From Planctomycetota bacterium (lineage in GTDB: Bacteria > Planctomycetota > UBA8742 > UBA2392), in contig JADLBZ010000061.1 in NCBI GenBank assembly GCA_020847415.1, positions 1 through 37,324 of the forward strand: a DNA stretch of 37,324 nucleotides. The letters are read 5' to 3'. Below, piece after piece: positions 30,322 through 36,566 of the stretch. The position numbers were made by a program, and so were the translations under genes. Position 1 is the first letter of the stretch; each line of letters begins with the position of its first letter. A model generated the notes under the pieces. It was not told the DNA's origin. It worked only from the letters and a program-made list of their open reading frames with translations, and made no database searches.

Positions 30322-31767
<1,446 letters not shown>

Positions 31768-31795: not shown

Positions 31796-31830
31796 AAGTC
31801 CACAGATGAACACGGATGGACACGGATTTA
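31796..31830 (-). repeat. ATCYGTG-type repeat R1 (minus orientation)
   Basis: Reverse complement: taaatccgtgtccatccgtgttcatctgtggactt. Confidence 0.85.
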
Positions 31831-32724
31831 CGGCAACAGCGGGCAGAACACACCAAGCACATTTGTGTGCTGTGCGCCCGTTGGATTGCGGAGCGGAAGG
31901 GGGTCAGTGCGACTAGTTACAACTTTCCTGATGAAGTCGTGCGATCGCGCCCCGCAGTTGATTTCGAGTTCTCGGCCGGTGATGCTCAGCACGTTCTTGA
32001 GCACACCGTGCTTGAGCCATTCGACGGGTACATTGAGTTGAAGCGAGCCCTCGCCGCAGACTTCTCTGCATGGGCAAGCGCCATGGAGCCGAAGTTGCCC
32101 AAAGGGCTTTGCTGCAAACTGCAGTTACCGGCACGGCTGCAGGGGTGGGGTGGCGCCAGTGCGCGGGAGGCGCTTGAGGCGTGGATTCTGGAAGTCGCAC
32201 CCGAAATGGGTAGAGACCTGGAAAGCGAGACTTCCCGTCAACGCGTGACAAGAGTTCGGGCCGCCGATTGCGGTGTGCCATTCAATGTAGAACTCAGCGG
32301 CGAGCTCAATCCCCGGGGCTCGGATTGGAAATTCTGGTTTCGAGTAACCGCGAGGCAATCCTGTGAAGACAAGAGTTGCTTTGAGCGGCGGATTCAGCGC
32401 GCCTTGGAGAGGAAGCTGCCGAAACTGAAGTCATGGCGCGGAACCTGCAAAACTTCCGTGCTGCTGCTTGAGGTGCCGGATCACACGTTGGACATTGGGC
32501 CGGGCCGCATGTTGCCCTCTAGTGACATTGCTACGAACTTGTTGCCGCCTTTGTGCACGGAACGCCGGGATGCACCGGACATCATCGTTCTTGTGGATAC
32601 GCAGGATGACGGGAATGGGTATTGGCTGTGGTGGTGCTTGAAGTGGGACGAGCAGTGGTATGAAGACCTTGAACCTGGGGAGCGCTTGGGTGAATGGTGG
32701 CACGAGCGGGGTTGCCGTGGGTAG
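31816..32724 (+). CDS. Protein of unknown function inserted between sufB and sufC
   Basis: 302-aa ORF beginning inside R1; 'RPAVDFEFSAGDAQHVLEHTVLEPFDGYIELKR'. Annotated start uncertain. Confidence 0.65.
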   Translation: MDTDLRQQRAEHTKHICVLCARWIAERKGVSATSYNFPDEVVRSRPAVDFEFSAGDAQHVLEHTVLEPFDGYIELKRALAADFSAWASAMEPKLPKGLCCKLQLPARLQGWGGASAREALEAWILEVAPEMGRDLESETSRQRVTRVRAADCGVPFNVELSGELNPRGSDWKFWFRVTARQSCEDKSCFERRIQRALERKLPKLKSWRGTCKTSVLLLEVPDHTLDIGPGRMLPSSDIATNLLPPLCTERRDAPDIIVLVDTQDDGNGYWLWWCLKWDEQWYEDLEPGERLGEWWHERGCRG

Positions 32725-32726
32725 CT

Positions 32727-32762
32727 TTATCTGTGTGAATCTGTGTTCATCTGTGGACCAAA
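32727..32762 (+). repeat. ATCYGTG-type repeat R2
   Basis: ttatctgtgtgaatctgtgttcatctgtggaccaaa, starting 2 nt after the stop of the 302-aa ORF. Confidence 0.85.
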
Positions 32763-32807
32763 CCGTAGTTTGAGTGAAAAGACCAGCATCAAACAGGATA
32801 CCAGAAG

Positions 32808-33191
32808 ATGAAGGACAGCAAGGACAAGTCAGACATTGATCGGGTCACCGAGCGGATCCTGGGGTGCGCGTTCAAGGTCTCCAATACCCACGGCTGTGGT
32901 TTCAACGAGAAGGTGTATGAGAACTCGCTGGTCATTGAGTTGGGCGTCGAGGGCCTGCGGGTTGAGCAACAGAAGCCATTCGATGTTCTGTATCGTGGGC
33001 AAGTAGTTGGCCATTACATTGCCGACCTTGTCGTAGAGGGTTGTGTGCTGGTTGAGCTGAAAGCCCTAGAAGCGCTTTCCTCCGTGCATGTCGCTCAATG
33101 CCTGAACTACCTAAAGGCGTCAGGGCTTAAGTTGTGTCTGCTCCTGAACTTTGGGCGCGCAAAAGTGGAAGTGAAACGCATCATTCTTTGA
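32808..33191 (+). CDS. GxxExxY protein
   Basis: '[20 protein letters not shown]...[33 protein letters not shown]...[20 protein letters not shown]' matches the GxxExxY family. Confidence 0.92.
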
Positions 33192-33227
33192 CCATCCGTG
33201 CTTATCCGTGTCCATCTGTGGACCAAA
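33191..33227 (+). repeat. ATCYGTG-type repeat R3
   Basis: accatccgtgcttatccgtgtccatctgtggaccaaa, starting at the last base of the GxxExxY stop codon and ending just before sufC. Confidence 0.85.
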
Positions 33228-33231
33228 TTGC

Positions 33232-33996
<765 letters not shown>

Positions 33997-33998
33997 CC

Positions 33999-35303
33999 AT
34001 GACCGCCACCGAACTTGCCGGCTTTGCAGGCCTGTATGAAGCCAGCGCGGCTGCGCGGGCCACGGAGCCCCGCTGGCTGCGCGAGTTGCGCGACGGCGCG
34101 TTTTCGAGCCTGAATGAGCTGGGTCTTCCCACGGCGCGCGACGAGGACTGGCGTTTCACCCCGCTGAAGCCGGTCACCTCGCAGGCCTGGGTGTTGCCCG
34201 GCAAGGCAGACGTTTCCTCCGCCGAAATCGCCCCATTCCTCTTTGGCGTGGCTGGGCCGCTGCTGGTGCTGGTGGACGGCCGGTTTGAGCCGCGGCTGTC
34301 ACGGCTGGGGGGGCTGCCGGCGGGCGTGAGGGTCGAGCCGTTGTCGGCGGTTATCGCGGGCGATCCGGCGGCCCACGAGCATGTGGGCCGCTACGCCGAC
34401 CATCACTCGCGCGCGTTTCTGGCCCTTAATGCAGCGCTCTTTGCCGATGGCGCGCTGGTGCGTCTTGAGCCCGGCGCGCGTCTTGCCGAGCCCCTGCACG
34501 TGCTGCATGTCTCCACGGGCGGGGGGGCGCTGTGCTGCCCGCGCCTGACGATCGAACTGGGCGAGCAGGCCGAGCTGTCACTGCTGGAGAGCTACGCCGG
34601 CGTAGGCGCAGGCGCGCGGCTGGTGAACGCCGTGACCGAGCAGGTTCTGGCGCGCGGTGCGCAACTGCGGCACATTCGCCTGCTGCGCGAAACCGAGCAA
34701 GGCGTGTTTCTCGGCTGGCAGGAAGTGCGCATCGAGCGCGACGCCATGCTGGCCAGCCACAGCCTTGCCCTGGGGGCGCATTTCGCGCGGGCGGAGACCA
34801 GCGCCATGCTGCGCGGCGAGGGCGCCAGTTGTGACCTGAAGGGCCTGGTGCTGGCCCGCGGCCGCCAGCACATGGACCACCAGTTGCTTGTGGACCACGT
34901 GCGCCCGCGCTGCACCAGCCGCCAGTTGTACCGCAGCGTGGTGGACGAGCGCGCCCGCAGTGTGTTTGCAGGCCGCATTGTGGTCCGGCCCGGCGCTATC
35001 GGCACCGATGCCAGCCAGCAGAACAACAACCTGTTGCTCTCCGACGACGCGCGCGTGGACACCAAGCCGCAACTGGAGATCTACGCCGACGACGTGAAGT
35101 GCAGCCACGGCGCCACCAGCGGGCGGCTGGACCCCGCCGCGCTCTTTTTCTTGCGCTCGCGCGGGCTGGACGTGCCGTCGGCGCGCAGCCTGCTGACCTA
35201 CGCATTTGCCAATGATGTGGTGGAAAGCGCGCCGGTGCCGCAGGTGCGGGCAGCGCTTGAGCAACTGGTGCGCGCCCATTTTGCCGGGGTGCTGGGGGAG
35301 TAA
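33999..35303 (+). CDS. sufD: Fe-S cluster assembly protein SufD
   Basis: 'EDWRFTPLKPV', 'AGRIVVRPGAIGTDASQQNNNLLLSDDARVDTKPQLEIYADDVKCSHGATSGRLDPAALFFLRSRGL'. Confidence 0.95.
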   Translation: MTATELAGFAGLYEASAAARATEPRWLRELRDGAFSSLNELGLPTARDEDWRFTPLKPVTSQAWVLPGKADVSSAEIAPFLFGVAGPLLVLVDGRFEPRLSRLGGLPAGVRVEPLSAVIAGDPAAHEHVGRYADHHSRAFLALNAALFADGALVRLEPGARLAEPLHVLHVSTGGGALCCPRLTIELGEQAELSLLESYAGVGAGARLVNAVTEQVLARGAQLRHIRLLRETEQGVFLGWQEVRIERDAMLASHSLALGAHFARAETSAMLRGEGASCDLKGLVLARGRQHMDHQLLVDHVRPRCTSRQLYRSVVDERARSVFAGRIVVRPGAIGTDASQQNNNLLLSDDARVDTKPQLEIYADDVKCSHGATSGRLDPAALFFLRSRGLDVPSARSLLTYAFANDVVESAPVPQVRAALEQLVRAHFAGVLGE

Positions 35304-35309
35304 AGGGCC

Positions 35310-36566
35310 GTGCGGCAACCAGCGCAGACAGCCGGTTCCACCCCAGACGCGCTTGATGTGCAGAGCGTGCGGGCGGACTTTCCCATCCTGTCGCGCACCG
35401 TGCACGGCAAGCCCCTGGTCTACCTCGACAACGGGGCCAGCACCCAGAAGCCGCAGGCCGTGATTGATGCCGTGAGGCGCTTCTACGAGCACGACTACGC
35501 CAACATCCACCGTGCCGTGCACGAGCTGAGCCAGGCCGCGACCGAGGCCTACGAGAACGCCCGCCGCACGGTGCAGCGCTTCCTCAGGGCAGAGTCCGAG
35601 CAAGAGATCGTATTCGTGCGCGGCACGACAGAGGGCATCAACCTGGTTGCCGGCAGCTGGGGGCGCGCCAACCTGGGCCCCGGCGACGAAGTGCTGATCA
35701 CTGCCATGGAGCACCACAGCAACATCGTGCCCTGGCAGATGCTGTGCGCCGAGAGGGGTGCGCGGCTGGTCGTGGCGCCCATGGACCAGACCGGCGCGCT
35801 GATCTGGCCCGAGTTCGAGAAGCGCCTGAACAGCCGCACGAAGTTGCTCGGTGTTGTGCACGTCTCGAACGCGCTGGGCACGGTGAACCCGGTGCGACGC
35901 ATGGCCGATGCCGCCCATGCGGTGGGCGCGCGCGTGCTGGTGGACGGCGCCCAGGCGGTTGCCCATGCGCAGGTGGACGTGAACGCCCTGGGGGCGGATT
36001 TCTACGTCTTCAGCGGCCATAAGATCTTCGGGCCCACCGGCGTTGGCGTCCTTTGGGGCAAGGCCGATCTGCTGGAAGCCATGCCCCCCTGGCAGGGCGG
36101 CGGCGACATGATCCGCAGCGTGAGCTTCGAGAAGACCGAGTACGCTCCGGCGCCCGCCAAGTTCGAGGCCGGCACTCCCCACATTGCGGGCGGCATCGGC
36201 CTGGCTGCTGCCCTGGACTACGTGACAGCCTTGGGCCTGCCCGCCATTGCGGCGTGGGAACACGAGCTGGTGCGTTACGCCCACGAGCGCCTGGCGGAGA
36301 TTCCCGGCCTGCGCTTCATTGGCACGGCGCCCCGGAAGGCCGCGGTCGTGAGCTTTGTGCTGGACGGGATTCACGCCACGGACGCGGGCATGATCCTGGA
36401 CCAGGAGGGCATTGCCGTGCGCGCGGGCCACCACTGCGCCGAGCCGGTGATGCGCTTCTTTGGCGTGCCGGGAACGATCCGGGCCAGCTTCGCGTTCTAC
36501 AACACCCGTGACGAGGTGGACGCCCTTGTTGCCGGCGTGCGCAAAGTGCAGAAGCTCTTCGCCTGA
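35310..36566 (+). CDS. sufS: Cysteine desulfurase SufS (GTG start)
   Basis: 'VYLDNGASTQKPQAVIDAV', 'YYANIHRAVHELS'-type segment, 'EHHSNIVPWQ', 'FSGHKIFGPTGVGVLWGK', 'RAGHHCAEPVMRFFGV'. Confidence 0.95.
   Translation: MRQPAQTAGSTPDALDVQSVRADFPILSRTVHGKPLVYLDNGASTQKPQAVIDAVRRFYEHDYANIHRAVHELSQAATEAYENARRTVQRFLRAESEQEIVFVRGTTEGINLVAGSWGRANLGPGDEVLITAMEHHSNIVPWQMLCAERGARLVVAPMDQTGALIWPEFEKRLNSRTKLLGVVHVSNALGTVNPVRRMADAAHAVGARVLVDGAQAVAHAQVDVNALGADFYVFSGHKIFGPTGVGVLWGKADLLEAMPPWQGGGDMIRSVSFEKTEYAPAPAKFEAGTPHIAGGIGLAAALDYVTALGLPAIAAWEHELVRYAHERLAEIPGLRFIGTAPRKAAVVSFVLDGIHATDAGMILDQEGIAVRAGHHCAEPVMRFFGVPGTIRASFAFYNTRDEVDALVAGVRKVQKLFA

Follow-up and report, generated by a model that had tools for sequence, protein, structure and literature searches.

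A GxxExxY gene between phased inverted repeats in the sufB-sufC junction of a Planctomycetota bacterium: one copy of a probable mobile element of bacteria and archaea

What are two genes foreign to iron-sulfur cluster assembly doing between sufB and sufC? The question is raised by contig JADLBZ010000061.1 (contig 61) of a Planctomycetota bacterium whose draft genome (GCA_020847415.1) amounts to 3.58 Mb and is 85% complete; positions 1 to 37,324 of this contig form the window analysed here. Its suf operon contains an open reading frame (ORF) of 302 codons and a gene of the GxxExxY family, and three copies of a repeat, R1 to R3, stand at their boundaries (Table 1). A first-pass annotation of the window proposed a modular, repeat-bounded mobile cassette inserted in an otherwise conserved operon. 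Our analysis supports this proposal and finds it, if anything, understated. The window probably holds one representative of a widespread mobile GxxExxY element of roughly 0.5 kb, whose nuclease would cut the arms of its own element, copying being completed by repair or replication. The anatomy, spread and mobility of this element family are well supported.

The coordinates, phased pattern and inversion of the repeats were all reproduced. The cores of R1 (31801-31827, minus strand), R2 (32729-32755, plus) and R3 (33194-33220, plus) each match ATCYGTGNNNATCYGTGNNNATCYGTG with 0 mismatches, the chance expectation of the ATCYGTGN3 x3 pattern being 0.00 in 100 dinucleotide shuffles, and R1 and R2 share a perfect 16-bp inverted match (31798-31813 / 32743-32758). 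The repeats abut the coding sequences closely: R2 begins 2 nt past the stop codon of the 302-aa ORF (32722-32724), the last base of the GxxExxY stop codon (33189-33191) is the first base of R3, and the start codon of the 302-aa ORF (31816) falls within R1, which therefore supplies that codon. As RNA, R1 is predicted to pair equally well with R2 (-47.7 kcal/mol) and with R3 (-47.3 kcal/mol). The Rfam scan returned no RNA family at the repeats, two tRNAs being the only matches in the scanned set. A repeat 3′ of each ORF, as first described, is indeed present; the basic unit is nevertheless an inverted pair, composed of a left arm, a gene or short loop, and a right arm.

The same unit recurs around GxxExxY genes elsewhere. 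Among 246 genomes sampled in this phylum, 112 encode GxxExxY, including 32 of the 41 genomes that bear the repeat versus 80 of the 205 others (odds ratio 5.6, p=5e-6). We read the flanks of 30 further GxxExxY genes and of 80 more that come from about 20 archaeal and bacterial phyla, and found one grammar: a left arm, e.g., CCAC-AGAT-nnn-CAC-AGAT-nnn-CAC-AGAT, followed by the gene and by the reverse complement of the arm. The unit varies (CACAGAG, CACGAAG, CGCAAAG, CGCCAAG, CATGAAG, CACGAAT, ACAGGATT, CACGAAA), and the ATCTGTG repeat is one flavour of this broader grammar. The inverted-repeat score across the gene had a median of 24 at 78 GxxExxY loci versus 11 for 422 control genes of the same loci (p=2e-30), and was 16 or more at 85% of the former and 11% of the latter. 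Phased units occur at 9.63 per kb within 200 bp of GxxExxY and at 0.55 per kb at a distance of 1-6 kb, a 17-fold difference, with 447 in the expected orientation and 89 in the opposite one; with such densities and about 85% of the genes bracketed, the repeats are not placed at random relative to GxxExxY. Median distances are 5 bp from the end of the left arm to the ATG and 4 bp from the stop codon to the start of the right arm, and the median element length is 495 bp. A collection of viral contigs yielded a sole GxxExxY relative (locus L432, IMGVR_UViG_3300037657_000197), flanked by CACGGAT/ATCCGTG units; a viral origin was set aside on the basis of this single match.

Arm type follows the clade of the encoded protein. 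A tree built from 85 GxxExxY proteins separates T-ending from G-ending units with 2 changes, versus a mean of 25.9 after shuffling (0 of 500 shuffles as low), and an independently sampled set of 53 loci also gave 2 changes, versus 9.4 when shuffled; host phylum takes 33-34 changes on these trees. Proteins with an EKxY motif have NGAT/NAAT versus NGAG/NAAG arms in a ratio of 25:0, and those with ESxY in a ratio of 4:32 (p=3e-13). Exceptions occur within the bacterium's own family, e.g., locus L267, which encodes EKVY between CGCCAAG arms. Across phyla, protein identity is only ~40-50%, yet the short arms retain their type; selection on the arm sequence therefore appears likely. The coupling fits two readings, joint travel of arm and gene as a unit or recognition of the arm by the nuclease.

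Regarding the protein itself, the 127-aa product scored 141.9 bits against TIGR04256 (cut-off 35) and 135.9 against PF13366, PDDEXK_3 (cut-off 22), in agreement with its initial description as a member of a known family of unknown function, annotated as such. Residues D73, E83 and K85, which correspond to the PD-(D/E)XK catalytic residues, are invariant in an alignment of 33 sequences, as is Q97, and an active nuclease is predicted for this reason. In Foldseek searches with the AlphaFold2 model (predicted local distance difference test score, pLDDT, 96.2), the best solved folds were LHK-Exo, Cas4 SSO0001, AddAB, lambda exonuclease and MGME1, the scores being modest (best E 4e-3, template modelling score up to 0.57). 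We thus predict with high confidence that GxxExxY is a Cas4/RecB-like PD-(D/E)XK nuclease. It has in common with the Cas4/RecB-family (QxxxY) nucleases the fold and the D, ExK and QxxxY residues, but differs from them in being a lone domain, outside CRISPR, tied to phased hairpin arms.

Evidence for movement comes from occupied and empty sites. In a pair of congeners of the window's family (genomes G004 and G008 of our set), an element is located at the sufS stop codon of G004 and the G008 site is empty; the G004 element is flanked by a perfect 27-bp duplication (CAGGAAAGTGCAGGAGCTGTTTCGGTA). Likewise, ~31 bp of the overlapping trpE|trpG junction are duplicated in Ramlibacter sp. Leaf400 (L195), and 54 bp of the hsdM|hsdS junction in a Taibaiella metagenome-assembled genome (L171), these gene names being read from translations. 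At all three loci both neighbouring genes are whole, because the duplication carries the stop and/or the start codon. A direct repeat outside the element scoring 14 or more was found at 15% of loci versus 0.7% of mismatched pairs, an excess that comes partly from neighbouring phased repeats. Additionally, G004 has a gene-less 139-bp hairpin that is missing from the corresponding site of G008, one hairpin that both congeners retain displays, by eye, a matching change in both arms, and congeners of another family contain many decayed GxxExxY copies. Our first congener comparison (G135/G223/G066/G164) yielded occupied sites only, and a de novo hairpin census over 1.6 Mb of G008 proved insensitive (6 found versus 2 in the resampled control) and was not used. 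G004 also contains arrays in which only right arms (ATCTGTG x3) follow one another in tandem, with spacers of about 100-160 bp (L395, L397 and contig ends); these arrays, often at contig ends, are probably collapsed repeats.

The orientation of the insertions is strict. With neighbouring genes called as longest ORFs, GxxExxY is in the sense direction at 35/35 loci between co-directional genes, and it shares the strand of the upstream gene at 45/48 loci; these counts point to a dependence on host transcription.

Within its own genome, the repeat pattern occurs 37 times (3 or fewer mismatches) versus 0 for a reversed-pattern control. Many copies form inverted pairs separated by a short spacer and so constitute gene-less hairpins of roughly 100-110 bp. 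Five GxxExxY genes are present, one of them between groES and groEL as read from the flanking translations. Several genera have a GxxExxY gene at this position, its arms weak or lost (L031, on contig C31 of the own genome; L254, G006; L256, G010). Other phased repeats, of the CTCTGCGTCTTTGCG and CTTCGCG types, and a GCAGTTGCC motif recur next to hairpins of the own genome (L006-L014, L025, L027).

The first-pass annotation had pointed to sufB-sufC junctions in relatives as the place to look for cassette-free sites. Of the 14 same-family relatives examined at this junction, G004-G009 and G011-G014 are cassette-free, with roughly 50-160 bp between the two genes (G003 and G015 gave no locus). Cassette arrays or their remains, all with repeats, occupy it in three other genera, and the first ORF differs: the layout is R(-)-Mrr-like ORF-R-GxxExxY-R in G001, where the Mrr match falls short of the cut-off (E=0.044), and R(-)-tiny ORF-R-GxxExxY-R in G002, and in G010 the 5′ part of a 302-family gene is fused to the 3′ part of GxxExxY between R(-) and R, which is a simple deletion product. 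Relatives thus do not all have both ORFs free of repeats, and neither of the two findings that the first-pass annotation named as refuting its cassette was obtained. The 302-aa ORF is not a steady partner of the repeat; the first slot varies among genera, and GxxExxY is the consistent partner. Several of the cassette-free junctions hold other phased hairpins, of the GGTTTTGGGG, CAGGTTTCAGG and GGGTATCAGG types, and a different small repeat, GAGCCCGSAGCGCAAGCGACGGG, is found in the junctions of G006, G007, G011 and G013 (L045-L048). In the gene tree, the window GxxExxY clusters with the G004 sufS|sufT copy (99/95) and apart from the copies that G001, G002 and G010 carry at sufB|sufC (95/89). 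This conflict between gene tree and insertion site is as expected of a moving or exchanged element.

Table 1. Repeats and genes of the suf region, in window coordinates.
Feature	Position	Strand	Basis or remark
sufB, host gene upstream of the insertion	30322..31767	+	profile search
R1, left outer arm	31796..31830	-	ATCYGTGNNN in three phased units, in the orientation opposite to R2/R3
302-aa ORF, first-slot cargo	31816..32724	+	no family match; conserved VDxEF...LEHT(E)LEPF
R2, internal arm between both ORFs	32727..32762	+	pattern match
GxxExxY protein, 127 aa	32808..33191	+	TIGR04256 E=1e-41, PF13366 E=1e-39
R3, right outer arm	33191..33227	+	stops just short of the sufC start codon
sufC, host gene downstream of the insertion	33232..33996	+	profile search; ATG at 33232
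sufD, rest of the host operon	33999..35303	+	profile search
sufS	35310..36566	+	profile search; site of the element with the 27-bp duplication in the relative G004

Profile searches also identified a SUF-associated protein among the window genes. The lower GC content first remarked for the cassette ORFs holds: the GC percentages of sufB, the 302-aa ORF, GxxExxY and sufC are 63.5, 58.5, 52.9 and 63.0, and at third codon positions the two cassette ORFs reach 66.0 and 65.6 versus 89.0 for sufB and 86.3 for sufC. Searches of Pfam, NCBIfam, PADLOC, PHROG and PDB sequences returned no match to the 302-aa product. Its relatives, at 36-38% identity, were found in G005, at a different site, amid other genes and free of arms, and in G010, at the same junction and as the 5′ part only. 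The family (window, L037, L038) conserves D49, E51, E62-H-T and an N-terminal CxxC, and is possibly a diverged PD-(D/E)XK-like nuclease; the single-sequence AlphaFold model (pLDDT 37.8) is unusable, and no fold claim is based on it.

GxxExxY is not the only cargo of such arms. Genes of the four-helix-bundle family TIGR02436 also lie in phased hairpins inside operons: in G001 (L040, L283) one is located between sufC and sufD, in the operon that holds the GxxExxY cassette, with GATTTTT-type arms, and in G004 another, with GGGTTTT-type arms, separates two genes (L392:6554-7049) at a site that is empty in G008 (C2:281577-281580). Their arm period is mostly 7, versus 8-10 for GxxExxY, a difference that is only suggestive with five loci. 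Such arms also enclose a DUF4112 gene and, as a weak match, a HEPN/AbiU2-like ORF.

Based on these observations, we propose that the element consists of a left arm of about three phased 7-bp units, a start codon, the GxxExxY gene, a stop codon and the same units inverted. It would insert into short gene junctions in the sense direction of the upstream host gene, so that host read-through could express an apparently promoterless element, and insertion would often duplicate about 27-54 bp across the stop/start junction, so that both neighbours stay intact. GxxExxY may recognise its own arm units, as a duplex or as an arm-formed hairpin, and then cut, after which repair or replication would copy the element to new sites; we give roughly even chances to its being the mobilising enzyme. 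Gene-less hairpins of 85-140 bp with matching arms would be non-autonomous derivatives, and homologous arms may allow the capture or exchange of a second gene, which could have produced the R-302 ORF-R-GxxExxY-R array of the window.

Several points weigh against this proposal. The duplications vary in length (27, ~31 and 54 bp) and most loci show no readable one, which leaves no fixed target rule; a gene-less insertion at L393 lacks a clear long duplication. About 15% of the sampled GxxExxY genes are not bracketed, and some loci, e.g., groES|groEL (L031), keep the gene and have lost the arms, possibly hinting at another role. The sense bias could reflect purifying selection, and the coupling of arm flavour and clade could arise from co-inheritance of arm and gene with no recognition needed. 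Transposition, moreover, is read here from comparison only.

Among the alternatives, it is possible, though we regard it as unlikely, that arms and GxxExxY are passengers of an enzyme acting in trans, either a Y1 transposase associated with repetitive extragenic palindromic (REP) sequences (RAYT) or an insertion sequence transposase. The gene-less 85-140 bp hairpins do look like REPINs and miniature inverted-repeat transposable elements (MITEs), four-helix-bundle genes in similar hairpins extend the cargo beyond GxxExxY, and the genome has four weak Y1_Tnp matches. Nevertheless, none of the Y1_Tnp loci (PF01797) carries a phased repeat, the arms are direct phased units without the small palindrome of REP type, and a third-party enzyme does not predict that arm type tracks the GxxExxY clade. 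REP/REPIN-RAYT systems resemble the element in their intergenic short inverted pairs of about 100 bp, mostly gene-less, a few flanking a nuclease gene; they differ by an HUH tyrosine enzyme and REP palindromes, where the element has a PD-(D/E)XK nuclease, three direct phased units per arm and long target duplications. With MITEs and insertion sequences the element shares terminal inverted repeats, target duplication and gene-less derivatives, but it has no internal transposase gene, its duplications are variable (27-54 bp), it is sense-only in operons and it is apparently promoterless.

Somewhat less likely still is an RNA parasite comparable to the intervening sequences (IVSs) of 23S rRNA, in which RNase III would cut the stem in the mRNA and free the host cistrons, with spread via RNA or silent retention. 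The 23S IVS of Coxiella burnetii has a 28-bp stem, GACAGAT heptamers, an S23/four-helix-bundle ORF and RNase III excision (PMC4990558), a comparable anatomy, and the strict sense orientation, the strong predicted stems and the presence here of the same four-helix-bundle family in phased hairpins inside operons agree with such a model. On the other hand, the GxxExxY fold is DNA-exonuclease-like, the element contains no reverse transcriptase, and target duplication is a DNA-level signature. This model and the DNA-based one are compatible, as RNA processing could explain tolerance of the element, not its movement. Like the 23S IVS (TIGR02436), the element is small and selfish, with an ORF of about 120 codons in a long inverted-repeat stem and heptamers by the start codon; unlike it, the element encodes a Cas4-like nuclease, occupies protein-gene junctions and has units mostly 8-10 bp apart. 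The window copy lies at sufB|sufC, not in a 23S rRNA gene, and its ORFs are of the GxxExxY and 302-aa families, not four-helix-bundle.

That the hairpins are host regulators of mRNA stability or attenuation, with an immobile, vertically inherited GxxExxY, seems very improbable: some copies are common to several genera at groES|groEL, or to congeners, but occupied and empty sites, target duplications, the conflict of gene tree and site, pseudogene relics and cross-phylum spread speak against it. An integron-like array with R as an attC-like site is hardly credible and, like the RAYT model, was set aside after the intI search and the Y1_Tnp loci both failed to support them: a repeat follows each ORF (R-ORF-R-ORF-R) and the first-slot ORF differs among genera at one junction, but the 85% complete genome yielded no intI above the cut-off (tyrosine-recombinase matches, 80.5 versus 265 bits), the first repeat is inverted and units are scattered singly across the genome. 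Short phased intergenic heptamers near start codons have also been described in unrelated bacteria, the TAACTGA repeats of marine Beggiatoaceae, for which translational control was proposed; these are direct arrays, and the abstract mentions no nuclease gene (PMC4679880).

In the open-access literature, our coverage of which left out subscription papers and preprints, we found no earlier description of the nuclease-encoding element and no paper tying GxxExxY to repeats. We tentatively suggest, at somewhat less than even odds, that it represents a categorically new class of prokaryotic mobile element, in which a Cas4-like PD-(D/E)XK nuclease would mobilise the miniature hairpin-ended unit that encodes it, arm and nuclease would have co-diversified into matched specificities in bacteria and archaea, and duplication of the stop/start junction on insertion would keep operons working, alongside a parallel four-helix-bundle class with another arm spacing, of which the 23S rRNA IVS would be a special case. 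The finding explains a class of intergenic repeats with a rhythmic pattern (such as CACAGATGAACACAGAT, ACAGGATTAACAGGAT and CACAGAGGACACAGAG) beside GxxExxY in many genomes, and for a family widely annotated without function the link to a readable repeat code gives a testable substrate and function; nucleases and targets that are naturally matched in pairs are a further product of the coupling. The finding also connects to the old, unsettled origin of the 23S rRNA intervening sequences, and the element illustrates how operons can be invaded by selfish DNA and stay intact.
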